Shown here one piece after another: positions 6,773 to 54,781 of a DNA stretch of 64,000 nucleotides (its first letter is position 1; the number at the start of each line of letters is the position of its first letter). Origin of the DNA: Siphonodentalium dalli (Eukaryota > Mollusca > Scaphopoda > Gadilida > Siphonodentaliidae); assembly GCA_032622095.1 (NCBI GenBank), contig CP136065.1, forward strand, positions 40,737,503-40,801,502. The letters run 5' to 3'. The position numbers and the translations under genes are program-made. Below the pieces are notes generated by a model, which made no database searches, was not told the origin of the DNA, and saw only the letters and a list, made by a program, of their open reading frames with translations.

Positions 6773-7266
6773 CAATGCATTATCTTATATACAAGGAGCC
6801 TCGCATATATAACAAAATGGATTGGCAACTTTACCCAACAGAACGGCCCTGTGCCAATGCATTCTCTAATATATGCGAGTCGACCATAGGTCGCCTCGCA
6901 TATATAAGAGAATGCATTGGCTTAACACATATTAAAAATGATAAAATTGTCAAAGAATGTAGAAAAATATTTAAAAAATTGTTAAAAAATGTAAGAAAAA
7001 ATTGTTAAAGAATGTAAGAAAAATGGTAAAAAGCGTTTTTTTAGGCCAATGCATTCTCTTATATATGCGAGGCGACCTATGGTCGACTCGCATATATAAG
7101 AGAATGCATTGGCAAAGGGCATAACTGTAACCATCACAATGTGGTCAATGAACCGGTTCCAATGCTATCCATATTTGTATGGTGTTATTGAGACAGACCG
7201 AAGATATTTTAGGCTGTTGAAACTTTATTTGGGCGTTTTTGGCCGGTTTGTTGGGTAAAGGGTTAA
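6773..7266. mobile_element. TTAA MITE, family A, copy A1, with hairpin modules
   Basis: The right end GGTTTGTTGGGTAAAGGG then TTAA (7263-7266) is intact. The left end (TTTACCCAACAG near 6830) has lost its TTAA. Two copies of the 69-nt hairpin lie at 6853-6921 and 7045-7113. A degenerate hairpin (6773-6827) precedes the left end, so it may belong to an older insertion. Between hairpins is an A/T spacer also found in A2 and A3. Confidence 0.8.
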
Positions 7267-7387
7267 CAATATTTACCTTGGCATTGCAAGCCAGTGCAAT
7301 CTCTTTAAAATACGAGGCTATAAGAGAATGCGCTGTTACATGATCTTTTATGTTGCATCGCGTGCAGCTCCCGCCATGAAAGGGTTA
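7263..7387. mobile_element. TTAA MITE, family G, copy G3, abutting A1
   Basis: This copy starts at the same TTAA that ends A1 and closes with GCAGCTCCCGCCATGAAAGGG then TTAA (7384-7387). Its right end matches the left end of G1 at 49445 in inverse orientation (CCCTTTGGTGACGGGAGCTG). Inside is a degraded version of the ATGCGAGGC/CTTATATA hairpin. It is probably a decayed copy inserted next to A1. Confidence 0.6.
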
Positions 7388-7626
7388 AGTATTGAAATCC
7401 TTGGTCGTGTTAATTTATTTGGAATGATTTATTTTTACAATATTCTATATATAATAAATTCATACATTTTGCATGTATATAATTAACAAATAATCTACAT
7501 GTATGTGAATCAAACACGCTGTCAACAGTTGAAAAACGTGTATATAGGTGGTATTGTGAGACTGTCTTTCATTATTGACAGAATCGCAGCCACATATAAT
7601 ATGCGGAACGTGTTTTCAACTGCAGG

Positions 7627-8085
7627 AACACCCCTGGTCAAGTGGTCCTGCTAATGTGCTATGATGCTGTTAGGGCAAACTGATGCTGTTAACAAAAAGT
7701 GCCGTTATATTTTTTTAATTAGTCCGTTTCGCGGTGTTCCGATAATCTGAACATATCCAACGAAAGCCATTATGCATATCAAAAATTTAAAAATATATTT
7801 ATTGCGAAATATTTGTAATACTTTTTATTAGTTTTTGAAAATCGACTATAATCAAGATGGTTATTCGCGTCATTTTAGAAACATCAGCGCAGTCATTATT
7901 ATATTTAAAAAAATCTATATATGCTCTTGAATGTTTCAAACACACAGTTTTTTCTCTCAAATCACAACTTTAGAAAAAATAACGGCACTTTTTCGTAACG
8001 TCGTCAGTTTGCCCTAACCGTATCATAGCAATTCAGCAGCACCGCCAGCATCATATCATATTAGCAGGACCACTTGACCAGGTGT
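7627..8085. mobile_element. Foldback element with long inverted arms
   Basis: The left arm (CCTGGTCAAGTGGTCCTGCT, then GGGCAAACTGATG and AAAAAGTGCCGTTAT) is inverted at the right (ATAACGGCACTTTTT, CAGTTTGCCCTAAC, AGCAGGACCACTTGACCAGG). The arms are about 80-100 bp with an AT-rich centre. The left arm holds one copy and the right arm two copies of the unit that forms the array at 5358-5628. No coding capacity is visible. Confidence 0.85.
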
Positions 8086-8466
8086 GAGGCAGTATGTGCC
8101 TTTCTGTGTAGACGTGATCAATTTGTCCACCATCGCAATAAATCATAGTACTTCACAAATGAATAATAAATATGACCAGAATGGGAAGAACAATTGGTCA
8201 ACTGTTGCAGGAATACATTTTGTCTGCATGCATGTGTACTAAATGCTCTCATATATTAAACTATAAAAATAGCATCTGCATGGCATTGCCCCTAATACAG
8301 GTCATGTGATATATCGTGAAACTCTGCCACATGGAATAAATAGGCACTGACAACACTATTTTTTCAGCAGTTTTCCCTCGTGCCACTATAAAGAAGTAGT
8401 CCAGGTTTGAAAGCCAGAGTTGGGATCATTAGTATAACCAAAATATGTGTGAAGGACTATTTAGTG
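8086..8466. other. Intergenic, no gene seen
   Basis: AT-rich sequence without a recognisable repeat, open frame or RNA signal. Confidence 0.5.
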
Positions 8467-9004
8467 TTAACCCTTTACCCAACAAACCGGCCAAAACCGG
8501 CCAAATAAAGCTTCAATAGCCTAAAATATCTTCGGTCTGTCTCAATAGAACCATACAAATATGGATATCATTGGAATCGGCTCCTTGAGCACATTGTGAT
8601 AGTTACAGTTATGCCATGTGCCAATGCATTATCTTATATATGCGAGTCGACCATAGGTCGCCTCGCATATATAAGAGAATGCATTGGCCTAACAAAAATC
8701 TTTTTTTACCATTTTTTCTTACATTCTTTAACAATTTTATAATTTTTAATGTGTTAAGCCAATGCATTCTCTTATATATGCGAGGTGACCTATGGTCGAC
8801 TCGCATATATAAGAGAATGCATTGGCCTAAAAAAAATCTTTTTGTAACACTTTTTACCATTTTTTCTTACATTCTTTAACAATTTTATAATTTTTAATGT
8901 GTTAAGCCAATGCATTCTCTTATATATGCGAGGCGACCTATGGTCGACTCGCATATATAAGAGAATGCATTGGCACAGGGCCCTTCTGTTGGGTAAAGGG
9001 TTAA
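8467..9004. mobile_element. TTAA MITE, family A, copy A2 (complete), three hairpins
   Basis: TTAACCCTTTACCCAACA at the left and TGTTGGGTAAAGGGTTAA at the right give an intact 538-bp element with TTAA at both ends. Subterminal GGCCAAAACCGGCC is followed by a block (AGCCTAAAATATCTTCGGTC) also found in A1, A3 and (partly) A4. Three copies of the 69-nt hairpin are at 8620-8688, 8758-8826 and 8906-8974, separated by an A/T spacer. Each hairpin plus spacer is a 138-148-bp tandem unit. Confidence 0.9.
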
Positions 9005-9905
9005 TAGATGTATATGGAAAGTGTTTATTTTTATTGAACATATATATTTCTCTTTATCTGGAGTATATCGTCCCAATGTTCAGAATTCCTTTCTCTGAGA
9101 CAACAATGATTCTACACCATATACCATTGACATATTCAACGATGCTCTGTACACCCATGATATCAATGGGTAGATGATAAAATCCGCAAAAGGGCCAAAT
9201 TCGCCAGTGTCGCGGTTATTGAAACATATTAATTCCATTGCCATGTTGTATCTAAAGCCACACGCTATGGAGTTAATTGTTGATATTAAGGATTCCGACA
9301 TTGTATAATACTGATTTGACACACAACAAGGACCACCCCTTTAATCTGTTTCCATGGCGCTCGCTGTATCATCCAGATGTCGTGCTGTCAGTAAAATGCA
9401 TGGCCTGCACAACCAACATCAACATTTTGAATGACGATGCGCAAAGCCACCATCTGAGGTGGATCATACACATAACATACATGTATATACACTAGGTACA
9501 TGGCCTAATATCTTCACGAAGCATTATAAAAGTAACACATGCTTCATACAAATCAAAATAAACACAAATCATTGTGGATCAATTCACAAAAATTATTCAC
9601 ATTGTTTAAGATGCTGTACTTGCCAGATCACCGGCAAATACTATCTCAGTTTTCGGAAGATTTATTTCAGAAATATGCTCACCCGCTCCAGGAGCGACAT
9701 AATTATGTTTTATCAATAACAACCATAAAAATTATCTTTCGTAGGAGATAACAAATAGTATTTTTGGAATATTCTGTTCACGAATGTCTGTGAATTCATT
9801 ACATACTATGGGAATGTGGTATTCGTCCCCTATCCAGTTAAAAAATTGGTCACAAATATACTTATTTGAGTTCCTCTATAGGCTATAGCGCCACTGTCCT
9901 TTTTA
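9005..9905. other. Intergenic, no gene seen
   Basis: Several short open frames overlap on both strands, none with a recognisable domain or splice context. Confidence 0.4.
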
Positions 9906-9916
9906 TATGGGAATTC

Positions 9917-9956
9917 GGTGGTTCGAAATTTCACCATGGTGAAATTTCGAACCACC
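9917..9956. repeat. Perfect 40-bp palindrome
   Basis: GGTGGTTCGAAATTTCACCA is followed directly by its exact reverse complement, with no loop. The outer flanks TATGGGA and TCCCATA extend the symmetry with a few mismatches. It may be the core of a foldback insertion. No second copy was noticed in the window. Confidence 0.9.
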
Positions 9957-10210
9957 TACGTCCCATAGAAAAGTTATAAGGGATCTGGTAATTTGGCAAA
10001 TAAAGCAAGTATCAGCTAATACCAGGGCGAGTCTTTTGTTTTGCCATAAAAAGATTCTCTCGATGAGTCCGATGTTTCCAGATCGCTGACAAGTTTACCC
10101 CAATGCTGTTCTATGAGAAATGATTTAATGTTTGCGCATGTCCTGTTTGGATACAGCGTTCAGCGTTAAGGAGGGCGCGTTTATTTTAGATAGAGGGAAT
10201 AGTTACAAAA

Positions 10211-11259
10211 TAAACACACTGTATTATCGAGCTTACACACTGTATTATCTAGCTTATAATAAACACACTGTATTATCGAGCTTATAATAAACACACTGTA
10301 TTATCGAGCTTATAATAAACACACTGTATTATCGAGCTTATAATAAACACACTGTATTATCGAGCTTATAATAAACACACTGTATTATCGAGCTTATAAT
10401 AAACACACTGTATTATCGAGCTTATAATAAACACACTGTATTATCGAGCTTATAATAAACACACTGTATTATCGAGCTTATAATAAACACACTGTATTAT
10501 CGAGCTTATAATAAACACACGGTATTATCGAGCTTATAATAAACACACTGTATTATCGAGCTTATAATAAACACACTGTATTATCGAGCTTATAATAAAC
10601 ACACTGTATTATCGAGCTTATAATAAACACACTGTATTATCGAGCTTGTAATAAACACACTGTATTATCGAGCTTATAAACACACTGTATTATCGAGCTT
10701 ATAATAAACACACTGTATTATCGAGCTTATAATAAACACACTGTATTATCGAGCTTATAATAAACACACTGTATTATCGAGCTTATAATAAACACACTGT
10801 ATTATCGAGCTTATAATAAACACACTGTATTATCGAGCTTATAATAAACACACTGTATTATCGAGCTTATAATAAACACACTGTATTATCGAGCTTATAA
10901 TAAACACACTGTATTATCGAGCTTATAATAAACACACTGTATTATCGAGCTTATAATAAACACACTGTATTATCGAGCTTATAATAAACACACTGTATTA
11001 TCGAGCTTATAATAAACACACGGTATTATCGAGCTTATATTAAACACACTGTATTATCGAGCTTATAATAAACATACTGTATTATCGAGCTTATAATAAA
11101 CACACTGTATTATCGAGCTTATAAACACACTGTATTATCGAGCTTATAATAAACACACTGTATTATCGAGCTTATAATAAACACACTGTATTATCGAGCT
11201 TATAATAAACACACTGTATTATCGAGCTTATAATAAACACACTGTATTATCGAGCTTAT
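10211..11259 (+). repeat. 28-bp satellite array, about 37 copies
   Basis: The monomer is AATAAACACACTGTATTATC plus GAGCTTAT, nearly invariant. A few units are shortened by 3-4 bp (near 10670 and 11120) and single-base variants occur (GGTATTATC near 10520 and 11020). The high identity suggests recent amplification or strong homogenisation. A single inverted unit lies beyond the foldback arms at 11629-11650. Confidence 0.95.
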
Positions 11260-11650
11260 GAACCCATCTGGTGTATGCGCTCACTCTACCATTTGAAATA
11301 ATTACTGTCTGCGAAAATATCAATATAACATTTTTCATTGCATGTTTTAGTTCTTTGGTGGTAATTTGAGAACTTTTTTTTCGTGTGAAATACCAAACAA
11401 AAATTATTCAACCACGTTTACAATAATCTGGCAGACATAAACACTCAATACTGATTCATTTTTTTCAGACATTATGTTGTTTTACGGTGATGTTTCCTCC
11501 AGAAAATAATTCTGCAAATGGCTACCAAAGAAACTGAAATATGCAATGAAAATTTTTTGATTTATTTTCTCGCAGACAGTAAAGATCTCATGCGGATGAT
11601 AGACTGGGCGCATACACTAGTTTGGTCCATAAGCTCGTTAATGCAGTGTA
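11260..11650. mobile_element. Foldback element attached to the 28-bp satellite
   Basis: The left arm (CTGGTGTATGCGCTCA, ATTACTGTCTGCGAAAATAT, TTTCATTGCAT, AGTTCTTTGGTGGTA) is matched inversely by the right arm (GCTACCAAAGAAACT, ATGCAATGAAAA, TTTTCTCGCAGACAGTAA, GGGCGCATACACTAG). The right arm is followed by ATAAGCTCGTTAATGCAGTG, a diverged inverted satellite unit. The monomer was therefore part of this element's inverted repeat before one side expanded. Confidence 0.8.
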
Positions 11651-13183
11651 CCTAAACAGGTTTTTTTTTTTTTTTTTAAACCACTCTTTTTTCTGTTTTT
11701 GCATAACTAGAACATTTATATCATATTGTAAGAATAAACAGGTGTTGCTATAGTACTATAGCAGAAGTAAAAATCTAGATCGAGTTCACTTGGAGTATTT
11801 ATAACATAGTTAAGCCATTTCGACTTACATGAGTTTTACGGATCGCTGTCGTTTAATAGATGTGCGATCAAATATATAGTCGTGGCCAATTCCGAACCGC
11901 CTTCACTGGAAATTATCGTTGACCAGTATGATAACAATCTACACTTTATTTCAGCTAAAATTGGATGCCTATCCAACTCTTCAATTTTTCAATTCAATTC
12001 AAATAATTTATTCTCAAACCAAATATATATGGTAATAGATACACAATATATCAACATGCCCCCCCCCCCATAATTTTATTTTCATATAAAATATTCATGT
12101 ATAATTATGCATTTTCATTAAACCGAAGTAACTATATTCACATGGGGTGAGCGATGCCGATAGCTATTAGTTCGCATGCGCCGGCATACATATAATACGT
12201 CTATTTTATATAGACATGAGTGTTCGGGGTAATTTCCATTATTAGTTCAAAATTTTATCAATGTAGCTAGATAGAGTCGTTCTAGTGTGACCAAACTGTA
12301 TGAATATACATCCACACACATTTGATTGTATAATGATTGCGTTAGTTCTTAAAAAAACTCACTTATACATGTATCTACCTTTTACATAGTGACGACCCCC
12401 TCCCCCAGACACCATCCCGTCAACAATCCAATAAATTCAATTGACACCGTTCGCAGCCGATGGGAGAGATGTTCTGAGTGCACGTGCTAAGCGTTCAAAA
12501 AAAACAAACGCAGGCGACACCGATGGACGCATCTTGATATAAACAGTTCAGATCTCTTTAGGTCAGTGTCGCGAAGTTCGACTTGGGTTCGGGTTGTGTT
12601 TTTGTGATCTACATGAATTGCTGCATTTCAACGTTTACCTTCTTAGTGCATGGATATATTAGCACCCTGGCACTTGGCTACTGAGAACAACATCCCAGCA
12701 TAACGGTACATATGATAATAAGAGATTGGTGAGTATGACTTGTTACTGAATAGTCGGCAACTATGACGTCAACTTTGAAACATATATGAATACAGTCACG
12801 AACAAAACATGTATAACAAAAATAATCTTCGTGCACCATAAAATACTATTTTACAAAATGTCATAGGCAGAGTCCGAAGCGTGTGGGTTCTTTCGAAACA
12901 CCATATTTCGCTACATATATAATTATTGGCATGATCATAGAATTAATCCGAATTGCACTGCGCGTCTATTTGTGATGTCATAATCAGCATATAGCTCACA
13001 TGGCTGTCAACTGTATGTGGATGAGTGGACTCACGAACCCTGGAATAGAATAGATTGTAGTATAAATTAATTACATCAGACCTTCCATCATATACAGTCA
13101 TTAACTTTAGTTATAAAATATATGAAAACTATACTATTGGTGCCATTTATATATTTAATTCAAGTTGATGCAATGTATAACGG
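11651..13183. other. Intergenic, no gene seen
   Basis: Contains a T homopolymer near 11661 and a C homopolymer near 12059. A 63-codon frame at 11882-12073 has no recognisable domain. Nothing else is supported. Confidence 0.4.
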
Positions 13184-14217
13184 TTAAGATAAGATAAGAT
13201 AAGATGATTTATTGCAATACACCAAATGGAGGCAGTTGCAAATAACAGTTAATACATGAAAAGTTACACATTAAAATAAAATACATGTAATTATGCATAT
13301 GTACGATAAATGATCATTAGTATTATAAATTAATACTTTCAACTTTTATTTCCCCATATTGACATTCTGTCTTTTTAGAAAGAATAACCGGATCATGTTG
13401 CCCACGGAATTGATTATTTGTTTGTCTTTGTTTTTCATTATAAAGATGAACTTATTATCATCACTCATGTTTATTAAATCTATGCTATACCTTTGAGCAA
13501 TATTAAACAAGTCTTTTCTAGAGTCAGCGTACGCACTGCATTCCATAATAAAATGTTTTTCTGTTTCAACTTTACGTTCATCACACATGTGACAAATTCG
13601 GTCTTTTAATGGCGTCTTCGGTTGCGTATGTCGACCCTTTTCTATAGCTAAAATATGATTGCTAACACGTAGTCGATTGAACATCTCTCTTGCCGCGGAC
13701 GATCGAACGTGCCTCAGGTACGGTTCTATGTCATAATTGTCTTTAAAAGTTCTGTAAGTTCGCAATTTATTAGCACCACCTGGTTATGTTCTGATTTTAA
13801 CCTTTCAATTATTAGTTTGTCTGTCACTCTTACTGTTGTATTAGATTGTGATATATTGATACCACTTTTGACTAATTGTGCGTCCCAAGTTGATTGATTA
13901 GACATGAGGGATTCCCTAAAAGAATCATGCATTAAAGTTCTTGATTTTACTGCACGCAGTTTAGTTAGATATTTATACATATTACCAATAGCATTAATTG
14001 CTATGGGATATCGACCCAGTTCAGCCCTCGAAGCATGATTTGAGGCCTTTTTATTCAACCTGAGTATACTCTTACAAAATGTCAAGTGTGTTTGCTCAAG
14101 TGGGTTAGTGTCAATAAATGGAATTTTTAACTCGGATGCCCATATTTCAGAACCATACATCAATATAGGCATTATTAATTTGTCAAACAACTTACATTTA
14201 GTATTGAGAGACAAGTC
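13184..14217 (-). pseudogene. 5'-truncated non-LTR retrotransposon, reverse transcriptase C-terminus
   Basis: Remains of the polyprotein of a CR1/L2/Jockey-like non-LTR retrotransposon, which copies its RNA into the genome. The first part (14214-13726) starts DLSLNTKCKLFDK and contains LMYGSEIW, typical of the region after the RT catalytic palm. The second part (13765-13346) has LRTYRTFKDNYDIEPYL and a terminal C..C...H....C motif (CHMCDERKVETEKHFIMEC). The two parts are in different frames, with a one-base frameshift near 13770. The catalytic YADD core and endonuclease are missing. The 3' end at 13184 is a short tandem of ATCTT units, usual for such elements. It is dead. Assignment to RT is sure; the clade is not. 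Confidence 0.9.
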
Positions 14218-14719
14218 TATATGTGAATTCAGTTATGTACATGCATAAGCAGGATGTGCATGTAAACTATCCGTATTCCATATTCTGTATTTAAATGCAC
14301 ACCAGGGACGTGGTTACACGGAGGGGTATCATCGTCCACGGTTGGTCCTTATTTTAACAGTTACAACATAGGTTGGACATTTCAGACAAAAAGAACGTTT
14401 TAAATTGTATCTCATAGTTTGCTTTCCCAACAAGTATCTCGTGTTCAGTCTGTTGTTTTAGACCAACGTCAAATCATTTCCTACTTTCGGTCAAATTGTT
14501 TTGGAGGTTGGACTGAAATGCCAGTGAGTTGAAATTCAAAAATCTCAGGACTTGGGACTTCGTTTCTGGTTCAAGGGGTGCACATTCTATGTTGGACACC
14601 CCTCCAAATGGAGACCTTGTCGTCACGTTCTGATCTTCAGGGTCGCAACCGGCAGGATTACAACAACCCGGTCATGTTTGTATAGGCCAAACTCAATATA
14701 GCGGTATGGTGATTTATGG
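14218..14719. other. Intergenic, no gene seen
   Basis: No coding signal. A block near 14595 (GGACACCCCTCCAAATGGAG) resembles the internal block of family B MITEs (ATTCATTTGGAGGGGTGTCC in reverse), suggesting a small fragment. Confidence 0.4.
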
Positions 14720-15474
14720 CACTGAGAACAAATTCGGTTCAATATGACTAATTTAGGGTTAGTCACAAGCATTTGGGATCACTATGGCTAACTCTGGTGT
14801 TAGTCAAAGTGACCAAATTACAGCAAGAATAACTCTAATTGCAACACTGCCTTGAATTATGCTTAATATTCATTGCTACATATTCATTTTCCAGTTTATC
14901 TGAGTTCTATTGGACCTACAATTGAACGAATGTTATGGGAGGATATAATGACATATATAGCAGAATTTCCCTCCCACATCAAAGGCTACACTATTAGGAT
15001 AAAATGTTCTTATTCCATGACACCACATATATTTCGGAAACATAAACTAATTAAACAGACCTATATCGCAAACTATTGTTATACTGCTCAATAGACAAAT
15101 ATACTGAAACATGTGTTTTAGAGAATGGATCGATTTTTTTCCAGTTTTCAATTCAGTCTCTGATTCTTGATAATATATCATCTGGTTGAGTATTTAATTT
15201 ATTTGCACACAATTTCCACCAAATTACTTATTCCCCATCAGTGACTCAGTTAGTCATTGTGACTTAATTCTGGCCATTTTGACTAACACAATTGTATTCT
15301 GATCCTAATTAGTCCTTTTGACTAACCATTCCTTAGTAGTTATGACTCACACCACCCTAGTTACTGTAACTAAGTTGCTGTCTTGGTCATTATGACTAAC
15401 CTAAGTTATTATGTTGTGGAAAAACAGTTGACTAACCTAAGTAATTCATATTGACTGACTTTTTTTCTTCAGTG
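14720..15474. mobile_element. TIR element with CACTG ends, about 755 bp
   Basis: The left end CACTGAGAACAAA and right end TTTTTTTCTTCAGTG are inverted repeats, followed inward by TCAATATGACTAA and its counterpart TTCATATTGACTGA. A motif close to TTAGTCA/TGACTAA is repeated more than ten times near the two ends (14740-14815 and 15240-15460), like subterminal transposase sites. No transposase is encoded. CACTG-type ends recall the CACTA/Chapaev group, but this is only a suggestion. Confidence 0.65.
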
Positions 15475-18144: not shown

Positions 18145-18167
18145 TTCTAATTTGGGTTAGCTCGCAG

Positions 18168-19700: not shown

Positions 19701-19824
19701 GAATCGGCATAACTTCAGTTACGGGCGGCCTATCACAAAACACGTCACCAGAGTACATGGACAGGAACCCTGATACATGTGCTGGTACTATATGGGGTAC
19801 CTAATTATGATAGTATGTATTCCT

Positions 19825-21360: not shown

Positions 21361-21384
21361 ATGTATAGCCAATATGTAGTGATA

Positions 21385-23553: not shown

Positions 23554-23568
23554 ACACGCTTGGGCTGT

Positions 23569-23968
23569 TTAACCATTTACCCAACAGAACGGCCCTGTGC
23601 CAATGCATTCTCTTATATATGCGAGTCGACCATAGGTCGCCTCGCATATATAAGAGAATGCATTGGCTTAACACATTAAAAATTATAAAATTGTTAAAGA
23701 ATGTAAGAAAAAATGGTAAAAAGTGTTAAAAACAGTTTTTTTTTAGGTCAATGCATTCTCTTATATATGCGAGGCGACCTATGGTCGACTCGCATATATA
23801 AGAGAATGCATTGGCACAGGGCATAACTGTAACTATCACAATGTGGTCAAGGAGCCGGTTCCAATGATATCCATATCTGTATGGTTCTATTGAGACAGAC
23901 CGAAGATATTTTAGGCTGTTGAAGCTTTATTTGGCCGGTTTTGGCCGGTTTGTTGGGTAAAGGGTTAA
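23569..23968. mobile_element. TTAA MITE, family A, copy A3 (complete), two hairpins
   Basis: TTAACCATTTACCCAACA at the left and TGTTGGGTAAAGGGTTAA at the right give a 400-bp element with TTAA on both sides. Hairpins lie at 23599-23667 and 23747-23815. The right half, including GACAGACCGAAGATATTTTA, matches A1 and the left part of A2 in inverse order. Confidence 0.9.
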
Positions 23969-26460: not shown

Positions 26461-27710
26461 CAACATATCGTAGTGCAAATAGGTTCACATTGGACCTACA
26501 TATATTCATATGGGTTCATATCGGACTTACATATATTCATATATGTTCATATTGGACCTACATATAGGTTCATATTGGACCTACATATATTCATATATGT
26601 TCATATTGGACCAACATATATTCAGATAGGTTCATATTGGACCTACATATATTCATATAGGTTCATATTGGACCAACATATATTCACATAGGTTCATATT
26701 GGACCAACATATATTCATATAGGTTCATATTGGACCTACATATAGGTTCATATTGGACCTACATATATTCATATAGGTTCATATTGGACCTACATATATT
26801 CATATAGGTTCATATTGGACCAACATATATTCATATAGGTTCATATTGGACCTACATATATTCATATATGTTCATATTGGACCTACATATATTCATATGG
26901 GTTCATATTGGACCTACATATATTCATATAGGTTCATATTGGACATACATATATTCATATAGGTTCATATTGGACCTACATATATTCATATAGGTTCATA
27001 TAGGACATACATATATTCATATAGGTTCATATTGGACCAACATATATTCATATAGGTTCATATTGGACATACATATATTCATATAGGTTCATATTGGACC
27101 AACATATATTCATATGTGTTCATATTGGACCTACATATATTCATATAGGTTCATATTGGACCTACATATATTCATATAGGTTCATATTGGACCTACATAT
27201 ATTCATATAGATTCATATTGGACCAACATATATTCATATAGGTTCATATTGGACCTACATATATTCATATAGGTTCATATTGGACCTACATATATTCATA
27301 TAGGTTCATATTGGACCTACATATAGGTTCATATTGGACCTACATATATTCATATGTGTTCATATTGGACCTACATATATTCATATAGGTTCATATTGGA
27401 CCTACATATATTCATATAGGTTCATATTGGACCTACATATATTCATATAGATTCATATTGGACCAACATATATTCATATAGGTTCATATTGGACCTACAT
27501 ATATTCATATAGGTTCATATTGGACCTACATATATTCATATAGGTTCATATTGGACCTACATATAGGTTCATATTGGACCTACATATATTCATATAGATT
27601 CATTGGACCTACATATATTCATATAGGTTCACATTGGACCTACATATATTCATATAGGTTCATATTGGACCTACATATATTCATATAGGTTCATTTTGGA
27701 TTTATTTGAT
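26461..27710 (+). repeat. 31-bp satellite array, about 40 copies, with a 240-bp higher-order repeat
   Basis: The monomer is GGTTCATATTGGACCTACAT plus ATATTCATATA. Some units are shortened to 23 bp by joining CTACATATA directly to GGTTC. The segment 27111-27350 (seven 31-bp units plus one 23-bp unit) is repeated without visible change at 27351-27590. The array runs at its right end into a dispersed repeat (family J, from 27690) that carries the same monomer. Confidence 0.95.
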
Positions 27711-38459: not shown

Positions 38460-38924
38460 TCAACCCTTTACCCAAGAGTCGGGATTTTTTTTACCCTGTG
38501 CCAATGCATTCTCTTATATATGCGAGTCGACCATAGGTCGCCTCGCATATATAAGAGAATGCATTGGCCTAACAATTTTTTACAATTTTAATAACTTTTT
38601 CTTGTATTCTTTAACAATTTTATAATTTCACCCATACAGAGACCCAGACAAACATGAGCAGACGACACTCTTCTATATGCTTCTATATATGTGTGGGGCT
38701 CCCTGCAGGGTAATGGATGTTTTTTATTTTATGTCCTAAAAATTGTAAGAAACATTTATTTAAAAAAAAAGATAAACAAATTGTTAGGCCAATGCATTCT
38801 CTTATATATGCGAGGCGACCTATGGTCGACTCGCATATATAAGAGAATGCATTGGCACAGGGTAATTTAGGCTGTTGAAGCTTTATTTGGCCGGTTTTGG
38901 CCGGTTTGTTGGGTAAAGGGTTAA
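38460..38924. mobile_element. TTAA MITE, family A, copy A4, two hairpins
   Basis: The left end is TCAACCCTTTACCCAAGAG (TTAA mutated to TCAA), and the right end is GGTTTGTTGGGTAAAGGG then TTAA at 38921-38924. Hairpins are at 38500-38568 and 38788-38856. The spacer between them is longer than in A2 and contains unrelated DNA (about 38630-38720), perhaps a further insertion. Confidence 0.85.
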
Positions 38925-41807: not shown

Positions 41808-42131
41808 TTAACCCTTTTAGTGCCAGGGGCCGATCTCATCTGTAGAGTGCCCGAAAAAAAAAAAACTCAAAACTATCACCAAGTATTCATAGTAATAATT
41901 TTGATGCCCATGAAAAACGTAAGATTCCCTGGCACTAAACCTACAAAATAAGTCTGTTAAAGAATATAAGAAAAAATTATTAAAATTGTAAAAAATTGTA
42001 AAATATAATAACAAATGATGAAAAATTGTTAGGCCAATGCATTCTCTTATATATTCGAGGCGACCTATGGTCGACTCGCATATATAAGAGAATGCATTGG
42101 CACAGGGTATATGGGTTGATCAAAGGGTTAA
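41808..42131 (-). mobile_element. TTAA MITE, family C, copy C1, one hairpin
   Basis: TTAACCCTTTTAGTGCCAGG at the left and GATCAAAGGGTTAA at the right. The left half (GGGGCCGATCTCATCTG, ACTATCACCAAGTATTCATA, AGATTCCCTGGCACTAAACC) matches the right half of C2 (54307-54781) in inverse order. The 69-nt hairpin lies at 42033-42101, followed by CAGGGTATATGGGTTGAT as in C2. The right terminus has lost a block of about 20 bp relative to C2. Confidence 0.85.
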
Positions 42132-44998: not shown

Positions 44999-45234
44999 GC
45001 AGTTACCAACGAAATGTTCTGATAATAACTTTATCAAACCATAGGCCGTTTGTTGAAGTTATTACCTGAGCATTTCCCATAGAATCAATGAATATAAATA
45101 ATTCTGCTCTTCGATTACATGTATCTGTTGTACTGTCTAGCATATACTTTTATCACATGAACACCCCTTTCAAATTAATACTAGACCATTCCAAAAACTG
45201 ATTGGGAGAATCCATTTAATATAGAAAGGGTTAA
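44999..45234 (-). mobile_element. TTAA MITE, family B, copy B4
   Basis: The right end TTTAATATAGAAAGGGTTAA is intact (TTAA 45231-45234). The left end is decayed around 44999. Shared blocks are GAGCATTTCCCATAGAATCA, ATTCTGCTCTTCG and ACACCCCTTTCAAATTAATA. Confidence 0.75.
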
Positions 45235-46099: not shown

Positions 46100-46109
46100 A
46101 ATGAATATT

Positions 46110-46945
46110 TAGGTATGAGTTTACTCAGACTGTTACTATAGTAGAGCAGTGATAACCATTTTTTATCATGGTACTTTTGTGTTATTTGCATATCATGTTT
46201 GGGTTTACCATAGTTTGCGTGTACTCAGTCTGATAGAGTTATACATTGTACAATTCATGGTTTAACCACAGTTACCATGGTAGTCATGATAATACTATGG
46301 TTTTAATTTACCATGTATACTTTGACCATGGATTTTATCGTAAAACCATTTTCGGAACTGGTGAATCCATAGCTTACTACAGTTTAATCATGGTTTTACA
46401 ACGATAACTATGGTATTACTATATAGTTTTATGTACGATATGACTTTACTATGGTTTTGTGGTAGAACCTATATCAAGATGAAGATCTTTTATACTCAAC
46501 CATAGTTATGCTATACCACACAATGATACTACCATGTACACGCTAATATTGTACACCGGTTAATGTGCGTGGCATATATAGTTTTGTGACAGTGTTCTAT
46601 ATTTCATGATCGTACGTATACCGTAAACTCTCTTGATCACTATGTCTAATTTTGCAGGTGAGAGTTTACAATGAATTTCGCAACTATACCATAGTAAAAC
46701 AGTGGCTTAATTAACTACGGTATGCACGATGGTCACGATAATACTATGGTTTTGATGTAACATGTATCATGATTTTTGTGGTAAATCCAAGGGGAGATGG
46801 GTTTTTAGCAGATCATAACTGAATAATGGTTTCAACACGATAACCATGGTATTGCGAGCTAGTTCTAATGTTCGATTCATTGTTTACTTGACCATAGTAT
46901 CGTGGTAAAAATGTTACTGTCTTTAAGCTCTTCTAAACTCAACAA
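46110..46945 (+). repeat. ACCATGGT/ACTATGGTTTT-rich region with a tandem duplication of about 445 bp
   Basis: The words ACTATGGTTTT, ACCATAGT and CCATGGTA recur about twenty times on both strands. The segment from about 46235 to 46500 is repeated, diverged, at about 46680-46945. Paired landmarks are GATAATACTATGGTTTT, CATGTAT, ACGATAACTATGGTATT/ACGATAACCATGGTATT, GTGGTA and CTC..CTAAACTCAAC/ATACTCAACC. Confidence 0.6.
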
Positions 46946-47831
46946 CTAGATATTATTCCACGGAGTGAAACAATGGACAAATAACTCGATTTTTTAATCT
47001 TATGCAGATATATGCACGTTGTAATTCAAAGAAATAGATCGTAATTTTACGCTGATATGAATTCCGGATTTTTCGCCGTCCACCTTTATATTTTCGTACC
47101 CTTTGCCAAGGTGTATTCCATCGATTGACAGCTGTTTGCCAGAAGATATGTGGCGGAAATAACTTTCACCAACGTTTTGTTATGAAGTTACAAAAAGCGA
47201 CCAACATTATAAAAATATATGACATTTCATCTTTAAACAAAACAAGTTTACACTAATTATAAATTAGAACTTCAAATATTGGTTTGAAATTTCCCATTAA
47301 TGTTGCGCCAGGCATGAACTTTCCAACTGTTGCAAATGTTGATCAAATATTTATGGGATGGACACCACCTCCCCAAGCCACGTCCTGAGTGCTAGCACTG
47401 GGCAGCAGATGCCCTCCATAGGCGTTGTCCCAAGCACCTGCGCTTCCGAATCTCGTTGATATAAGATAATTGAGAGAATTTAGCAGCTAAGGGAAGCGAG
47501 TTGGCTGAATAATACTAAGGAAATAGGAGCCACAACACTGATTAGAAAGTCAATTCACGTCCTGGCTGTCCGATGAATATTAGCTCTCTGGATACTTTGA
47601 TTGCACCCTGGGGTCATTGGTGACAGCCCTGATCATGTAATTATTTGGAAATCGATTTTATATTGTATTACTTCCTTCAGTAGTTTTGTGAAGAAGATGA
47701 TCAGAATGGGCATATGACTGTCTATTTGCCAATTATTGTCGCCTAGTTAAAAGAATTGACAACATTACCCGGTGGACCACTGTCCAAGTTGATTTCCTAC
47801 AATAGACAACGAGAAGTCCCACGCTGAGCTA
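46946..47831. other. GPCR intron 2 sequence, nothing named
   Basis: No recognisable gene or repeat. Confidence 0.4.
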
Positions 47832-48172
47832 CAGTACCAGTCAATAGAAGTGGTATATTGAGGCGCGCCTTTATTGCGATATTGAGCGCGCTTAATTTCG
47901 AAAAAGGCGCGATTGTAGCGCAATACCAAAAATCTGTCGCGCTTATTACTGCGATATTGGACGAAAAATATTGCGATATTAAGCGCGCTAAATTACTTAC
48001 AGACCCGATAGTGTTATGTGTATATTAGATAAATACTGGGTATATAGTGTACATATAGCATTTACAACTATAATTATATACAAATCTAAAACATTTGTCT
48101 CTAAAATATTGCAATAATATCGCAAGCGGTGCGCTTATAAGCATTTGCACTTGCAATATTATTGCGATCTAA
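47832..48172 (-). mobile_element. TIR MITE, family F, copy F1 (right end truncated)
   Basis: The left end CAGTACCAGTCAATAGAAGT follows TA. Sequences rich in ATTGCGATATT and GCGCGC follow (GAGGCGCGCCTTTATTGCGA, TTCGAAAAAGGCGCGATTGT, AGCGCAATACCAAAAATCTG). All of these appear in inverse orientation at the right end of F2 (61333 inward). The AT-rich middle (ATATAGCATTTACAACTATA) also matches F2. The far terminus is missing. Confidence 0.8.
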
Positions 48173-48225
48173 CACACCTCAAGCATTTAAATGTTCGTAA
48201 AATGCACATAATCTCTTTTACTCTC

Positions 48226-48355
48226 CGCTCCATGGTCCAGTGGTTAGCGAATCGGACTTTCCTTCGCCGTCAACACAGCGATTTGAGTTCGCAGTCCGCG
48301 GCTGGTCTAATGTGAGTTTCACACAGTGGCTTGTCCGAACTGATCACTGAACACA
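48226..48355 (+). repeat. tRNA-derived SINE with A and B boxes
   Basis: TCCATGGTCCAGTGGTTAGC matches a tRNA-like A box (TRGYNNAGTGG). GATTTGAGTTCGCAGTCC about 45 bases on resembles a B box. The body GGTCTAATGTGAGTTTCACA, GTGGCTTGTCCGAA is also at 35160-35215. It lies in intron 2 of the GPCR. The tRNA of origin is uncertain, perhaps Glu or Asp type. Confidence 0.7.
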
Positions 48356-48491
48356 CCTGCCCAATGTACGTACAGTCCTCCAGTTTACTGCATATTCTGT
48401 CGACATCACTTACTTTTCCCTCAATATAAGAAACTTTCATTGTTAACACAGTAAGCTTACTCTCCGTCACATCAAGCTTGTTCACCTTCAT
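48356..48491 (-). pseudogene. Coiled-coil ORF1-like retroelement fragment
   Basis: The minus-strand frame from 48491 reads MKVNKLDVTESKLTVLTMKV then SYIEGKVSDVDRICSKLED, a regular heptad pattern of L/V/I with charged residues. It resembles the coiled-coil N-terminal part of non-LTR ORF1 (gag-like) proteins. A stop codon precedes the first Met by three codons, and the frame then runs into the SINE-like repeat, so this is only a fragment. It could also be a chance frame or another coiled-coil protein. Confidence 0.4.
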
Positions 48492-49444
48492 GACCAGCTA
48501 CTGAAATATGTTGGAATTCAGCATGAAATCTTCAGCGCCCCAGAATACTATTTCTACCGCGGACCGGTTGTATTGCCTGAATGATGGTTGCCATTAGGTT
48601 CTCCGTATGCCTGGTATGACTAAACGTTTACGTCGTTTCACATATATATATAGTCTGTTCTCCAACTACGAATAACCACTGAGGGTATAACATAATCCAT
48701 CACAATACATGGCGTCAGCGGCGCCAGTGACTGAACAGAACATATTGCATCGATAAATATGTCAAGCAGTACTGGGTAGCCGAAACTTTGGACGATACTG
48801 GATCTATGACGTAGTCGATCGGGGTGATCAGCCATGGGACAGAAGTTTAGATGTTATTTTTCCAAAATACACAATCTAGGCAGAAAAGATTTCCACAGTT
48901 TTGTAGTAGCCGTTGTTGTTATTGTTATATCTGGTGCAATTACAATTGGGGCACCATCTAATAGCGCCATCTAACAGCGCCAGCCTCCTGGAATTGTGTT
49001 AACAAACTGCACCTAAAATATACGTCCGAACACTATTCACACCGTCAGCCCCTCCAGTCAAACATCGACAAAATCTTAAAGTGAAACTGGCGTTAACCAA
49101 ACGGGAAGCGCTCGGGTGTAAACTGTTTGGTTTATTGACTTGGCACCACTTGGCGCGTGAACCGCATATACATTAGTACACCCCTTAATGTGCCGGTTGC
49201 TTTATTTATATTGGTGCAAAATGTTATCAGTATCGCTCTGGACACCGCCGACAGACAGTTATATAGCACATATACGTGAACCTTTAACTATATTATAATG
49301 GATTAGACGTAAAATGAGAATCAATTAAGGATTTTACGTATTTGGTATACAATGTTATTTGTAGAGACTAAATGAATGGACCAGTTCAATGCTAGAGGAA
49401 AAGTAGTAATTATGATGGAGTTTCTTTTATATAATTTGTCATCA
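48492..49444. other. GPCR intron 2 sequence, nothing named
   Basis: No gene or repeat recognised. A short duplication, CATCTAATAGCGCCATCTAA CAGCGCCA, lies near 48955. Confidence 0.4.
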
Positions 49445-49685
49445 TTAACCCTTTGGTGACGGGAGCTGCGCTTGTGCAGCATTCAGGATCCTATGCCAGG
49501 GCATTCTCTTACTTATGCGACTCTCATATATGGAGCCTCGCATATATAAGATAATCCACTGGCTTACAGTGTCAATGTAGATATTGTTATGTCAATGCAT
49601 TATCTTTTATATGCGAGGCCCATTGCGAGGCATTGGAACAGGGTTTTCGCAAACATTTGGGAAGCTCCAGTCATGGAATGGTTAA
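49445..49685 (+). mobile_element. TTAA MITE, family G, copy G1
   Basis: TTAACCCTTTGGTGACGGGA at the left and AGTCATGGAATGGTTAA at the right, with TTAA on both sides. Two hairpin-like segments (49499-49562 and about 49600-49635) use the same CATTCTCTTA/TATATGCGAG vocabulary as the 69-nt hairpin but are diverged. Confidence 0.75.
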
Positions 49686-49853
49686 ATATATTAAATTCCT
49701 AGAACGAGTTTCTGTTGATGATAATGGACATATGAAAGTTAACAGTTTACCGTTTGCCAGTGGATGGACCAATTTTGCAAATGAATAGGACGTTCGATAA
49801 CGCACTCCAACAATTATTCAGTCAAAAGCTCTTCAGACTGTTTACATCCGGTG

Positions 49854-50067
49854 TTAACCCTTTCTATACTAAATGGATTCCCCCACTCAGTTATAAAAGT
49901 ATACATTGCAATGGTTTATTATTCATTTGGAGGGGTTTTCAAGAAACACAAGTAGACGACAGACAGAAAAACTGATAATTCGGAATTCATATTCATTGGT
50001 GAACTTATTATTTGAATATTTCCAAAGGGAACTACTCGTCAACCAGTATTTAGTATAGAAAGTGTAA
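49854..50067 (+). mobile_element. TTAA MITE, family B, copy B3
   Basis: TTAACCCTTTCTATACTAAA at the left and TTTAGTATAGAAAGTG at the right (right TTAA now TAAT). Blocks CCACTCAGTTATAAAAGTAT, ATTCATTTGGAGGGGTTTTC and GTAGACGACAGACAG are shared with B2. Confidence 0.85.
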
Positions 50068-50085
50068 TATAAAATTTATCTTATT

Positions 50086-50300
50086 TTAACCATTTTATGA
50101 CTGGAACATCGTTGGTGCAGCATTAAAGGTCATGTACCAGTGTATTCTCTTATATATGCGAGTCTCCTACAGGGAGCCTCGCATATATAAGAGCATACAC
50201 TGGCTTACTATATATGTCAAGGTACATATTGTTATGCCATTGTATTGTCTTATATATGCGAGGCTCCCTATTGGCACATGGTTTTCGCAAAAATTTCAGG
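50086..50300 (+). mobile_element. TTAA MITE, family G, copy G2, next to the TM6 exon
   Basis: TTAACCATTTTATGACTGGA at the left. A hairpin at about 50135-50204 (GTATTCTCTTATATATGCGA, then CTCGCATATATAAGAGCATA) is followed by a second half-hairpin at 50236-50275 and GGTTTTCGCAAAAATTTCAG. The right terminus is missing. The element ends about 55 bp from the TM6 exon's splice donor. Confidence 0.7.
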
Positions 50301-50353
50301 ATGTGCAAACGTATAATAAGTGTTTCTTTTATGGGCGGAATGAAGAAATTTAC

Positions 50354-50458
50354 CGTGACTTTAGCATCTGCGGCATATTCAGCATATAATATTGTCACCT
50401 GCAGCGGCATCATGCAGATAACGTAGGACACCAATATTACTATCAACATAATCACAAC
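50354..50458 (-). CDS. Peptide GPCR, TM6 exon
   Basis: A 105-nt exon encoding exactly 35 residues in phase 0. The acceptor TTTCTTGCAG precedes 50458, and the donor GTAAAT starts at 50353. The peptide is VVIMLIVILVSYVICMMPLQ followed by VTILYAEYAADAKVT. It joins directly to the Lys-rich end of the TM5 exon, as expected for the intracellular end of TM6. The family's CWxP motif (C6.47, W6.48, P6.50) reads C-M-M-P, so the tryptophan toggle residue is replaced by Met. LYAEY is the start of extracellular loop 3. The gene is on the minus strand. Intron 1 (57029-50459) and intron 2 (50353-34637) flank it. Confidence 0.92.
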
Positions 50459-50609
50459 CTGCAAGAAATAGTGATATTAGTTTAATCATCACAGTGGGAT
50501 CATATATTTTTGGAGATACCAGAATCAAACGCGATATATATTTCAAAATGATTAGTAGTGACAAGCAATAACCAACGGGTGATGATAGAAACACACCGCA
50601 ACAAGAACA

Positions 50610-50882
50610 TTAAAGGCACGGGCGGCGTTCGTTGCAGAAATATTCACATTTGTTCAAATCGCCATCAACAGAGGGAATATTAAAATATATAGTTTTGTTC
50701 ATATGCCCAACATAATCAGCGATTAAATAGTATATAGTCGTCAAGACGTACGATGGTGTACGTAAACAAGAGTATGCTCGTGTTACAGATGTTGTGCTTC
50801 TGTTTACATAACACAGCGCAATTCTAATCACACACAAATGATATAAACGTTCTTTATTATTTCCATATCAGGAAAACAGTAA
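50610..50882 (+). mobile_element. TTAA MITE, family E, copy E2, left part
   Basis: TTAAAGGCACGGGCGGCG, ATATTCACATTTGTTCAAAT, CGTCAAGACGTACGATGGTG and AATCACACACAAATGATATA, as in E3. It breaks off after AGGAAAACAGTAACG. The missing continuation resumes at about 52009. Confidence 0.85.
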
Positions 50883-51208
50883 CGAACTAGAATGCACTCA
50901 CTGGAGCTGCCTATACTTGCGCCCATCACACATTTTGGCATGTTGTGTGGTGTCTTGCCGACAACAGTTTGAACCACGGGTGCTGGCCCCTCGTTTGAGA
51001 GATCGATAACAAAAATCTAGATATCAAATCTCTGTTCATCCATCGCTGAAATAGTTGTGTGTACGGACATAATATCCCTGTTATGATGATATGGACCCCA
51101 GTTGGCTGCATATTAGGAACGATAACTCTATCCGATCTAATTACAGGTGAGACATATTGGTAGTGTTTTTTACCTGTTAACCAACTATCAGATTTAGGCC
51201 ACTCCTAT

Positions 51209-51540
51209 GCATGGTGTATTATCTACATGTATATTACGTGAGGACCTTGATGGGGATAGCTTCAGTCTTGAATGTTAAAGTGACACACTGCGCTCGCTGA
51301 ACGAAGTCTCTCCATGTGAACGATGTATTATCTACATGTATATCACGTGATGACCTCGCTGAACGATGGGCAGCTTCCGCCCTGAATATTAAAGGGACAA
51401 AATGCACTCAGTATTTGAATATTAAAGGGACAATAGGCTCTCACGGGGGATGATTGTTAAAGTGACACAAGGCACTCACTGTGGATGAATGTTAAAGTAA
51501 CACTAGGCACTCACTGTGGGATAATGTTAAAGTGACATTT
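51209..51540 (+). repeat. Diverged minisatellite, 35-110 bp units
   Basis: ATTATCTACATGTATATYAC GTGA is duplicated 109 bp apart (about 51218 and 51327). Then five or six shorter units follow, each with GTTAAAGTGACAC or ATTAAAGGGACA followed by GGCACTCACTG. Confidence 0.7.
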
Positions 51541-51659
51541 GCATTGAAAACTTCAAAAACTTCAAACGCGTTGACGTGCGCGTTACTATGACTGACCCGC
51601 AGTTTATAAGGGTATACGTCTTGGTGGTAATTTGGCGCCTATAAAAATTACTAAGTTTT

Positions 51660-51765
51660 TTGAAATTTGTTAAATTTGTGAAATTTTTGAAGTTTTTGAA
51701 ATTTTTGAACTTTTTGAAATTTTTGAAATTTTTGAAATTTTTGAAATTTTTGAAATTTTTCAATA
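51660..51765. repeat. 9-bp microsatellite (GAAATTTTT)n
   Basis: About ten near-perfect units. Because 9 is a multiple of 3, the minus strand stays open and reads as a KNF repeat. This is a composition effect, not a gene. Confidence 0.9.
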
Positions 51766-52008
51766 TTGTTCATTTATGAACGATATATTACCAAAATAAA
51801 ACCAGATAACAATGCAAATTAAGTATATATATATAAATTTCCAACTTCAACGCTTCATAAAAATTACTGGAACAACAACGCATGCGCGTTGCCTCTTTTT
51901 CTGCTTCCGTTATCTCGGTCATGACGTAACATATTCCCGGAAGGACAGACAACAGACAAAGATCCGGACCGAAAACATTACTTGCGTCCAGTATGGACTG
52001 GCGCAAGT

Positions 52009-52244
52009 AATAACGCTCTTTATGTTAACCATATCCGGATCTAAACAAAAGCCAGGTAACGCAACGTTTTTTTGCTTTTGTTTACATAACAAAGGAAAAA
52101 TAAGTGACAATAACATACTGTTTATGCCGTATTTCTGATTGGTATAAGAACAAAGTCTGTCTATATTTTACTGTTTATAACGGTTTTTGACGGAGTTGAA
52201 TATTTTAACAGCATACGCACCGCCAACGCCGCCCGTATCTTTAA
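52009..52244 (+). mobile_element. TTAA MITE, family E, copy E2, right part
   Basis: AACGCTCTTTATGTTAACCA, CATATCCGGATCTAAACAAA, TTTTGTTTACATAACAAAGG, GCGGTTTTT-like block and the terminus AACGCCGCCCGTATCTTTAA (TTAA 52241-52244). It is collinear with 63321-63566 of E3. Confidence 0.85.
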
Positions 52245-52370
52245 GTACAAATACACCACGTGCATCAATTATATCCCAACACGAATACTAGTCCATCTTA
52301 TTCAAAGCCTCTGCTTAAAACGGTAATACATTTCAATTATTAATGTTGTTGACTAATGTGGCCCTATAGT

Positions 52371-53020
52371 GACGTAGTTTTCTCAGTTAGATCGACCAAG
52401 GCTGCCCAGAAATAAATAATCCAGACGGAATTTGAAAGTACAAGAGGTTGTTTTGAAGAATGAGATGGGACCAGTTCGAAGATTGATCCAACTAAGATGC
52501 ACAAGAACAGTGGGCAACTGGCCACATATTGACGCAATCTTCAAGTTAGATCGATCAAGAGTTCCCAAAAATAAACACCCCAGACGGCATTTGAAAGTAC
52601 ACGCGGTTGTTTTGGAGAATGATATGGGAACAGTTGGAAGATGGGTCCATCTTAGAGCACAGGAACAATGTGCAACTGACCAATGTGGCCACATATTGAC
52701 GTAGTCTTCTAGTTAGATCGATCAAGACTTCCCAGAAATAAACAACCCAGACCATGCAAATATCATGCAAATATCCACAGCAGAAGTTATATATTAACCA
52801 GTTGTCTGGGAAGTAAATCTAACTAAGGTGCACAAGAACAGTGGGCAACTGGTCACACATTGACGTAGTATTCTAGTTAGATCAATCAAGACTTCTCAGA
52901 AATAAACACCCCAGACGGCATTTGAAAGTACACGCGGTTGTTTTGGAGAATGAGATGGGAACAGTTCCAAGATCGATACAACAGAGATGCACAGGAACAG
53001 TGGCCAACTGAACACTTTGG
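52371..53020 (+). repeat. Tandem repeat of about 160-167 bp, four copies
   Basis: Units start near 52371, 52531, 52698 and 52862, each with GACGTAGT.TTCT.GTTAGAT and CCCAGAAATAAACA, then CCAGACGGCATTTGAAAGTA CACG and AACAGTGGGCAACTG. The third unit differs in its middle. Two units are open on both strands, because the period is near 162 (54 codons). The third and fourth break the frames, so I treat it as non-coding. It lies in intron 1 of the GPCR. Confidence 0.85.
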
Positions 53021-54306
53021 CGAATTTTCTCTCAAAAATCACAAATGAGAGTCTCCATACAGTGAGGATATGTTGAAATGTTTCCAAATTCATCATATAT
53101 CTATATGTGCATTATTATAAGTTAGGAACAATATCGATGTAATGAATATCAAATATGTTAGGCATCACGTGAGCTACAATATTGTCTTGTCAAACGTATT
53201 CACATCCAATTATTTAGGGATTACATGCATGTAGTATACTATTCCTGCTGAACGTTTTACAAGTTAATTCTCTCATATTCTTATTATCGGTGCCTCTGGC
53301 AAACCTTGATGATCAGAATAATATCCATCTTCTGTATATGGAATACCCAATAGGATTGCTGCGCACGGAATTTTGGCACTTTTATAAAAAATCATTGACT
53401 GGTTCACATACCTGGTCTTGAAACGAGATTCATATTTTCTCGAAAGTGGTAATTCAAGAAAGCGGAATGATTTATATTTAATTGTAGTTCGCGTGTACGT
53501 GTTCAGTACGGATTTGTAAATATTGGACAATGTAATTATTGGAACAAGCGTCTAATATATATATACATGTATTTACATGGGAACATTGCGCTGTCGACGT
53601 ATAAAACGCGTTCGGTTTTTCTAAATTTGATCCCATACTTAAAGTTTCCAAATGAGCAATGCTATCCGCGAAAGTGAGTAGAACAGAACATCCGCTTCTC
53701 AATAACATGCTATTCCCAGTCAGACAGTCAATAATGTGGTTCGCTGTGACAAGCGACAGCCCTAATTAATGAAACCTTACTGAATCCGACAGTCCTTAAC
53801 GAAATAAATGTATAATGATCACAGACTCCTGTAATTATTGTATCGAATAGGGCCCTCAGCCACTGATAACGTGGTTTATTAATCCCACAATCAGCATTCC
53901 CGAAAGCCAGTTGAGAAGTAATATCTCTAGTATGGCTTTGATCGAGTTCCATAGTGCTTCTGTACTCATTTTACATCAAGGGCAATCACCTATTTCATAA
54001 TCATAATGTTTTTGGAGAACAGTACAGTGTTGGTGCACGCTACCGCCTATCACATAATATGGTAAACATCTGTTAAATGGGTGCTACACGCGTTGCCGAC
54101 AATTTATTAGACGCCTTCCAATTTATTCAACGGAAAATATCCTCCAAATGAATTAATTTGAGACGAGGATGCGTGCTGAGTTCACACGCATACTCAAACG
54201 AATCGCAGATATCAACATGAAAATTACAATAAATATAGTTTATGACTCGAGCCATAAACTCGATTACGATATTTTTGAAAGTTTCAAATTTTGAATGTAA
54301 CCACAA
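53021..54306. other. GPCR intron 1 sequence, nothing named
   Basis: Several short minus-strand frames with no domain. No repeat recognised. Confidence 0.4.
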
Positions 54307-54781
54307 TTAACCCTTTCAGTGCCAAGTCCGATTTTTGTATCAACCCATATACCCTGTGCCAATGCATTCTCTTATATATATATAAGAGAATGCATTGGCC
54401 TAACAATTTTTCATCATTTGTTATTATTTTTTACAATTTTAATAATTGTTTCTTCTATTCTTTAAAACTCTTTCAGTGACAGACTTATTTTGTAGGTTTA
54501 GTGCCAGGGAATCTTACGTTTTTCATGCGCATCAAAATTATTACTATGAATACTTGGTGATAGTTTTGAGTTAAAACATGCCCCTAAGGTTTTATCCAGT
54601 TTGTTTTTAAATTCGCTATAGCGTGCTTAGGCATACCCAAAAATAATTCAACCCAAAAAAACAAATCTAAACAAATGTTTTTTATTTAAAAAAAAATTTG
54701 GGGCCGATTTTATCGGCTCTGGCACTCTACATACCGTAAATTAGGGCCGATGAGATCGACCCCTGGCACTGAAAGGGTTAA
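54307..54781 (+). mobile_element. TTAA MITE, family C, copy C2, shortened hairpin
   Basis: TTAACCCTTTCAGTGCCAAG at the left and CCTGGCACTGAAAGGGTTAA at the right, with TTAA on both sides (475 bp). The hairpin at 54358-54399 is a perfect 42-bp palindrome. It lacks exactly the central 27 nt found in the 69-nt copies. A second CTTTCAGTGACAGACTTATT block near 54471 resembles the terminus. Confidence 0.9.

Follow-up and report, generated by a model that had tools for sequence, protein, structure and literature searches.

How does a nearly perfect hairpin of 69 nt come to recur in transposable elements whose ends differ? The question is raised by a stretch of 64,000 nt from the scaphopod mollusc Siphonodentalium dalli (GenBank assembly GCA_032622095.1, contig CP136065.1, positions 40,737,503 to 40,801,502 of the forward strand), referred to here as the window and numbered from its first base. 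A first-pass annotation had placed the hairpin at about a dozen sites in two families, A and C, of miniature inverted-repeat transposable elements (MITEs), with diverged forms in family G, and had proposed that it either moves on its own or is exchanged between MITEs. We find it built into the subterminal part of elements of at least four MITE families (A, C, E and G) as a cassette, and our data support the exchange of termini between MITEs. With a probability that we put at about 0.7, the cassette has been spread by MITE transposition, with ends of two target-site duplication (TSD) classes swapped, partly by recombination at the hairpin, and with an intact hairpin probably favouring propagation.

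The hairpin and the families that carry it

In outward order, the cassette consists of TTAG or TTAA, a 27-nt arm, a mismatched G, CGACC, the loop TAT, GGTCG, a mismatched A, the second arm and ACAGGG, or in short CCCTGT-hairpin-YTAA, with the 69-nt hairpin in subterminal position. The inner stem CGACC/GGTCG and 3-nt loop are as first described, and the G-A mismatch is an addition to that description. The consensus folds at -54.3 kcal/mol (z = -13.7). A search of the window with the 27-nt arm at up to three mismatches gave 26 matches, compared with none in 100 shuffles, and recovered both arms at all ten full sites that had been named:

6853..6921, minus strand, hairpin with one mismatch
7045..7113, plus strand, perfect hairpin
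8620..8688, minus strand, hairpin with one mismatch
8758..8826, plus strand, hairpin with perfect arms and one inner-stem change
8906..8974, plus strand, perfect hairpin
23599..23667, minus strand, perfect hairpin
23747..23815, plus strand, hairpin with one mismatch
38500..38568, minus strand, perfect hairpin
38788..38856, plus strand, perfect hairpin
42033..42101, plus strand, hairpin with one mismatch

The arms had been called perfect and matched throughout. This holds for six of the ten full sites (7045, 8758, 8906, 23599, 38500 and 38788), where both arms equal the consensus, but not always, since the other four (6853, 8620, 23747 and 42033) carry a single mismatch in one arm. The shortened copy at 54358 was also found, as were diverged family G hairpins at 6773-6826, 49495-49563, 50136-50204 and 50236. 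Hairpins in our sample are mostly flanked by ACAGGG or a near variant outward and by TTAR inward, with departures from the standard cassette in some copies, such as the middle hairpin (8758) of a triple element. Internal deletions, as expected of unstable palindromes, give shortened hairpins at locus L002 (2049-2100 and 2237-2274) and at window position 54358.

The genome searched comprises 2.23 Gb in nine contigs of 190 to 301 Mb. The genome-wide count that the first-pass annotation had proposed as a check yielded 312,227 exact matches (156,189 + 156,038) to the first 20 nt of the arm, against none for the reversed control, and the exact junction of arm and ACAGGG occurs 156,842 times. The hairpin is thus present in well over 100,000 copies. 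If each has two exact arms, the density is about 70 per Mb and the share of the genome 0.48%, both underestimates because mutated arms escape an exact match. Viral contigs contained no match to the arm 20-mer. Hairpin-bearing units also occur in tandem arrays on G000 C1, at approximately 0.820-0.921 Mb and 0.735-0.786 Mb, where the unit repeats roughly every 11.17 kb and 14.56 kb.

The families differ in how they carry the cassette. Elements of families A and C usually have two, in opposite orientation with ACAGGG outward, and one family A element in the window has three (8620, 8758 and 8906). Family E carries a single hairpin, at just one of its ends, and family G two diverged hairpins about 27 nt apart. 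What lies outside ACAGGG varies by family: A ends in GTTGGGTAAAGGGTTAA and C in GATATGGCGGGTCAC, the outer end of E at the hairpin side is GGCACTCAAAGGGTTAA, and G has two forms that end in GGGTTAA. The termini of A, E and G all begin TTAACCCTTT (one G end has nine of these ten bases), and beyond these ten bases the termini of different families are not clearly more alike than shuffled sequence. The C terminus is not clearly like that of A, E or G; the nearest is E, at a level that 19 of 300 shuffles equalled. The elements in the window are as follows:

6723..7388, family G MITE, TTAA on both sides, split by the insertion of the family A element listed next
6827..7266, family A MITE nested in the preceding element, hairpins at 6853 and 7045, first bases lost on the left
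8467..9004, family A MITE, TTAA on both sides, three hairpins that start 138 and 148 nt apart
23569..23968, family A MITE, TTAA on both sides
38460..38924, A/C chimera with A termini around a C core, left junction of type 2, flanked by TCAA and TTAA
41808..42131, family E MITE with one hairpin, right boundary set by eye
49445..49685, family G MITE, TTAA on both sides, one hairpin at 49495-49563 and another that is degenerate
50086..50330, family G MITE with hairpins at 50136-50204 and 50236, right end approximate
54307..54781, family E MITE, TTAA on both sides, shortened hairpin near 54358

Two details of the original placement are refined: a third family, E, holds the copies at 42033 and 54358, and what lies at 38.5 kb is an A/C chimera.

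Overlapping or duplicated loci were left out (L003, L004, L005 and L008, and from the TSD and flank work also L007, L030, L032, L035, L037, L038, L040, L041 and L046). Among the pairs of ends that remained, TTAA stood on both sides of 24 of 29 A and A/C elements and three of five G elements, and in seven of ten rows for family E (one right end being common to two rows). Family C showed an identical 4-bp AWWT duplication in eight of ten pairs (ATAT five times, ATTT twice and AATT once). Inverted terminal repeats and TSDs, as expected of MITEs, were seen in A, A/C, C, E and G pairs. Paired ends are mostly 210-530 nt apart, and further when elements are nested, and a single A terminus has 39,190 exact copies, so that the elements are short and of high copy number. 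Elements of this size can hardly hold a transposase; the list of open reading frames for the window covered those of at least 110 aa.

Cassette borders, chimeric elements and transposases

The window came with hairpins as its finding; an unselected sample of 20 stretches of 10 kb (200 kb) at set positions was read alongside it. In the window and sample together, all 16 A ends (seven from the window and nine from the sample) lead into a hairpin, as do all seven C ends, every one of them outside the window. The G ends number 18, one repeated end accounting for three of them; 14 lead into a hairpin, and remnants were seen by eye at the other four. Only one of three E ends does so, because the hairpin is present at one E end only. 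Exact copies of the A terminus number 39,190, and 35,139 of them run on without a change into CCCTGTGCC; a loss of 10% over these nine further bases is one that point changes and short indels could produce. The flank pair that C and E have in common gave 29,813 matches, with hairpin sequence inside all of the 100 matches listed.

These data bear on the proposal that the hairpin, or the hairpin core, is itself mobile, inserts at TA and is carried by the MITEs in which it landed. Consistent with this, TA bounds the cassette on the outside in families C and E, and at locus L011 (7077-9541) an apparent core has TA at both ends, an insert inside and no C termini; locus L079 is a second candidate core without MITE termini. 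In L079 we also note that the left hairpin (about 158-200) is shortened, with arms that depart from the consensus at three pairs yet match each other, and that TAGATCATG adjoins the core on the right and lies 19 bases away on the left. Families A and G, however, have no TA at the cassette border. The sole foreign continuation counted, the arm followed by ACAGGGTA and then G, differs from those of both C and E; it has 97 exact matches against the 156,842 junctions of arm and ACAGGG. Of eight of these 97 that were read, four are point mutants of C, three are A or C copies with truncations or other alterations, and one (L079) is a candidate. C termini closed up on each other gave five exact matches at three places, none with the expected empty-site sequence, and family C as a simple palindromic MITE that received an inserted core was rejected in the absence of such a site among the exact matches. 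An independently mobile hairpin should occur outside MITEs with its own TSD and empty sites; this was not seen, apart from one or two candidates. Solo movement as the way in which the cassette spread, one of the two routes first proposed, is not supported by these data; it may occur rarely, and we regard a mobile hairpin or core as very improbable.

Exchange between MITEs, the other route, is supported. The window element at 38460-38924 has A termini and a C core, and its right junction recurs 278 times in the genome at up to one mismatch, the 100 matches listed being spread over six contigs. Twelve chimera loci were read. Nine are bordered by TTAA at either end, with flanks that differ, and of these L073 no longer has its left hairpin; of the other three, one has TTGA and TTAA and two have no left terminus. 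These chimeras have thus transposed after recombination. Two types of left join were seen. In seven loci, CCCTGT-hairpin is where the A terminus meets the C core, the outcome expected of recombination within the hairpin, and in L074, L076 and the window copy the A terminus is joined inside the C terminus. Since there are two types of join, left ends were swapped at least twice.

Inheritance of the hairpin from one ancestral MITE, with ends that diverged without exchange and a hairpin kept by chance, would account for the relatedness by eye of the inner AT-rich parts of A, C and E, and for the presence in family G of the same CTAACAAT beside the hairpin. It is poorly matched by the occurrence of one hairpin consensus in A, C and E despite unrelated ends, and by the scarcity of arm variants common to several copies (see below). 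Multi-copy chimeras of C core and A ends, with two left junctions, refute the full account unless they are assembly artefacts, and we consider simple inheritance quite unlikely.

Which transposases moved these elements can be approached through their ends. Matches to piggyBac transposase domains number at least 128 genome-wide, a good part in open frames (examples are G000 C1:161101192, C1:177559656 and C3:181299240); many of the frames are long and some matches score equally, which suggests recently active elements. In one open-frame piggyBac family, two left ends begin TTAACCCTTT where their flanks diverge, and another family starts TTAACACGTTGAGTGCC, matching E at 15 of 17 nt. Because A, E and G share TTAA and TTAACCCTTT, whereas C has AWWT and unlike ends, it is most likely that A, E and G were moved by piggyBac-type transposases and C by another type, perhaps Sola2, whose published TSD is AWWT (PMC3627910). 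An origin of the hairpin in autonomous piggyBac elements was considered, but the hairpin was not seen in 16 flanks of 12 such elements.

Decay and constraint of the arms

The first-pass annotation had taken matched arms amid diverging sequence as a hint of gene conversion or of selection on the fold. Pair changes were followed in 80 copies of C and E (100 listed, less 12 that were array copies or duplicates and 8 that had indels), and terminal changes in 95 copies of C over 25 nt each (from 100 listed, after 4 duplicates and 1 indel), all listed copies lying on contig 1, within its first 8 to 15 Mb. The 80 copies contain 70 substitutions. Fifty-nine pair cells are changed on one side, 18 of them leaving a G-T wobble, and one on both sides, where 0.55 would be expected by chance. 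None of these 60 changed cells is restored, so arm-by-arm correction is not seen, and gene conversion between the arms of one hairpin is not supported as what holds them matched. Individual copies decay without compensation.

A different picture emerges from variants that copies share. Singletons, which arise mostly after insertion, do not differ significantly between arms (0.56%), inner part (0.67%) and C terminus (0.88%). Shared variants, which are mostly inherited from source elements, reach 0.37% per site in the arms against 1.8% in the inner stem and 1.6% in the C terminus (p ~1e-6 and 2e-7), a four- to fivefold shortage in the arms. When each shared variant is counted once, there are 7 per 54 arm sites, 8 per 15 inner sites and 15 per 25 terminal sites (p 0.002 and 3e-5). 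These p values are guides only, because the copies are non-independent and all come from the one region of contig 1. The difference between arms and inner part persists without CpG sites. Figures for flank divergence came from few copies and carry no weight in this claim.

Between families, double changes preserve the pairing. Comparison of A/C/E with G in 15 hand-picked hairpins revealed two-sided changes in 6 pairs and 18 cells, including both inner-stem pairs that differ between families, whereas the maximum in slid controls is 4 pairs and 6 cells. The number of cells, the percentage paired and the covariation score each exceed all 500 shuffles and all slid controls, and the G-A mismatch is invariant in the 15 aligned hairpins. 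Compensatory change is therefore absent within copies and present between A/C/E and G. Given this and the scarcity of shared arm variants, either constraint acts on the arms in lineages that spread or recombination keeps them uniform there. The suggested selection on the fold is accordingly supported only for propagating lineages and between families, not for individual copies.

The stability of the fold, the invariant mismatch and the double changes between families would also suit a hairpin that acts as RNA, in read-through transcripts with a 32-bp stem that are processed to small RNAs or that it stabilises. The window has no Rfam match at gathering scores, however, and small RNAs from a MITE's own sequence would tend to silence that MITE. 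The 3-nt loop is unlike that of canonical microRNA precursors. We consider an RNA role unlikely.

The reading that we prefer is that the hairpin spreads through the transposition of high-copy MITEs and not by its own. The cassette and its surrounding core would have been joined to different termini of two TSD classes, TTAA (piggyBac-like) and AWWT (Sola2-like), at least some of this joining being by recombination in or beside the shared hairpin, with the recombinants then transposing; a long stretch common to elements would be the site at which they recombine. Individual copies would decay uncompensated, while the arms stay nearly constant in lineages that still transpose. If the shortage of shared variants reflects functional constraint and not homogenisation, an intact hairpin probably favours propagation. 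Its retention by TTAA and AWWT elements alike makes the binding site of one particular transposase a poor fit, and its role may be something common to both classes, for instance folding of the DNA, a site for a host factor or a patch for recombination. A bolder version, in which a cis-acting, transposase-independent hairpin drives MITE amplification as a parasite of parasites, persists by boosting the copying of any termini joined to it and crosses superfamilies as its own recombination patch, is doubtful.

Several observations weigh against this spread by MITE transposition, or against parts of it. The one or two candidate cores, L011 and L079, seem to have clean ends with no MITE termini, as described above. 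Family E, with one hairpin at one end, indicates that two hairpins are not needed. Recombination that homogenised the source elements could also leave few arm variants in common between copies. With the set cut to 80 copies, the singleton figure for the C terminus goes up to 1.04%, which leaves equal decay of arms and terminus unproven. Between families, neither the number of pairs with double changes (68 of 500 shuffles are as high) nor the number of pair types (267 of 500) is unusual. On the side of the transposases, the link of A, C, E and G ends is limited to 10 to 17 nt, and the Sola2 label of family C derives solely from its TSD. Right ends of autonomous piggyBac elements were not found in the stretches fetched, and the 16 flanks of 12 elements (12 upstream and 4 downstream, drawn from the at least 128 matches) hold no hairpin arm at up to five mismatches.

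Elsewhere in the window, an open reading frame on the minus strand at 56952-57485 resembles by eye part of a G-protein-coupled receptor, and long minisatellites with units of 28, 31 and 35 bp lie at 10235-11259, 26479-27700 and 55521-56443.

Significance and comparison with known systems

There is no settled answer to how MITEs attain such huge copy numbers or to why many of them fold. As the hairpin is kept by families of two TSD classes and survives the swapping of ends, its effect on copying is directly testable with otherwise identical elements that have or lack the hairpin. It also follows that MITE families need not be lineages, as ends and cores can differ in history. In the open-licence literature, the combination seen here, swapped ends around a shared hairpin cassette, was not met; the searches gave only the precedents below, and four end or arm strings did not occur in the open-licence papers searched. 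A paper on hairpins across genomes (PMC13155455) was of no help for this hairpin.

REP/REPIN elements are pairs of inverted hairpins with a short spacer, in which they resemble family G. They offer a comparison system from bacteria (PMC3116915, PMC3733652), whereas the present hairpin sits in a eukaryotic MITE context with TSDs. The composite AgaP2-P12MITE of Anopheles gambiae has two ends from two subfamilies of autonomous elements, and its authors considered that stable secondary structure may give a transposition advantage (PMC1562414). Both of its ends belong to one superfamily (P); here a core is found with TTAA and AWWT termini, a near-perfect hairpin and very high copy number. Highly conserved domains are common to short interspersed nuclear elements (SINEs), and one of these, the V domain, lies inside the MER6 MITE (PMC6887750). 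The V domain and the hairpin are alike as conserved inner modules of different kinds of element that are amplified by riding on them, but the abstract does not describe the V domain as a hairpin, and the module here is a subterminal palindrome in DNA transposons. The ends of piggyBac and piggyBat, elements of this type targeting TTAA (PMC7351741), have subterminal palindromes, which in piggyBac are bound by two C-terminal domains of the transposase dimer (PMC11707139). These palindromes are 19 bp or shorter, in contrast to the hairpin of S. dalli, which is 69 nt long, has a G-A mismatch and is also found inside AWWT elements.

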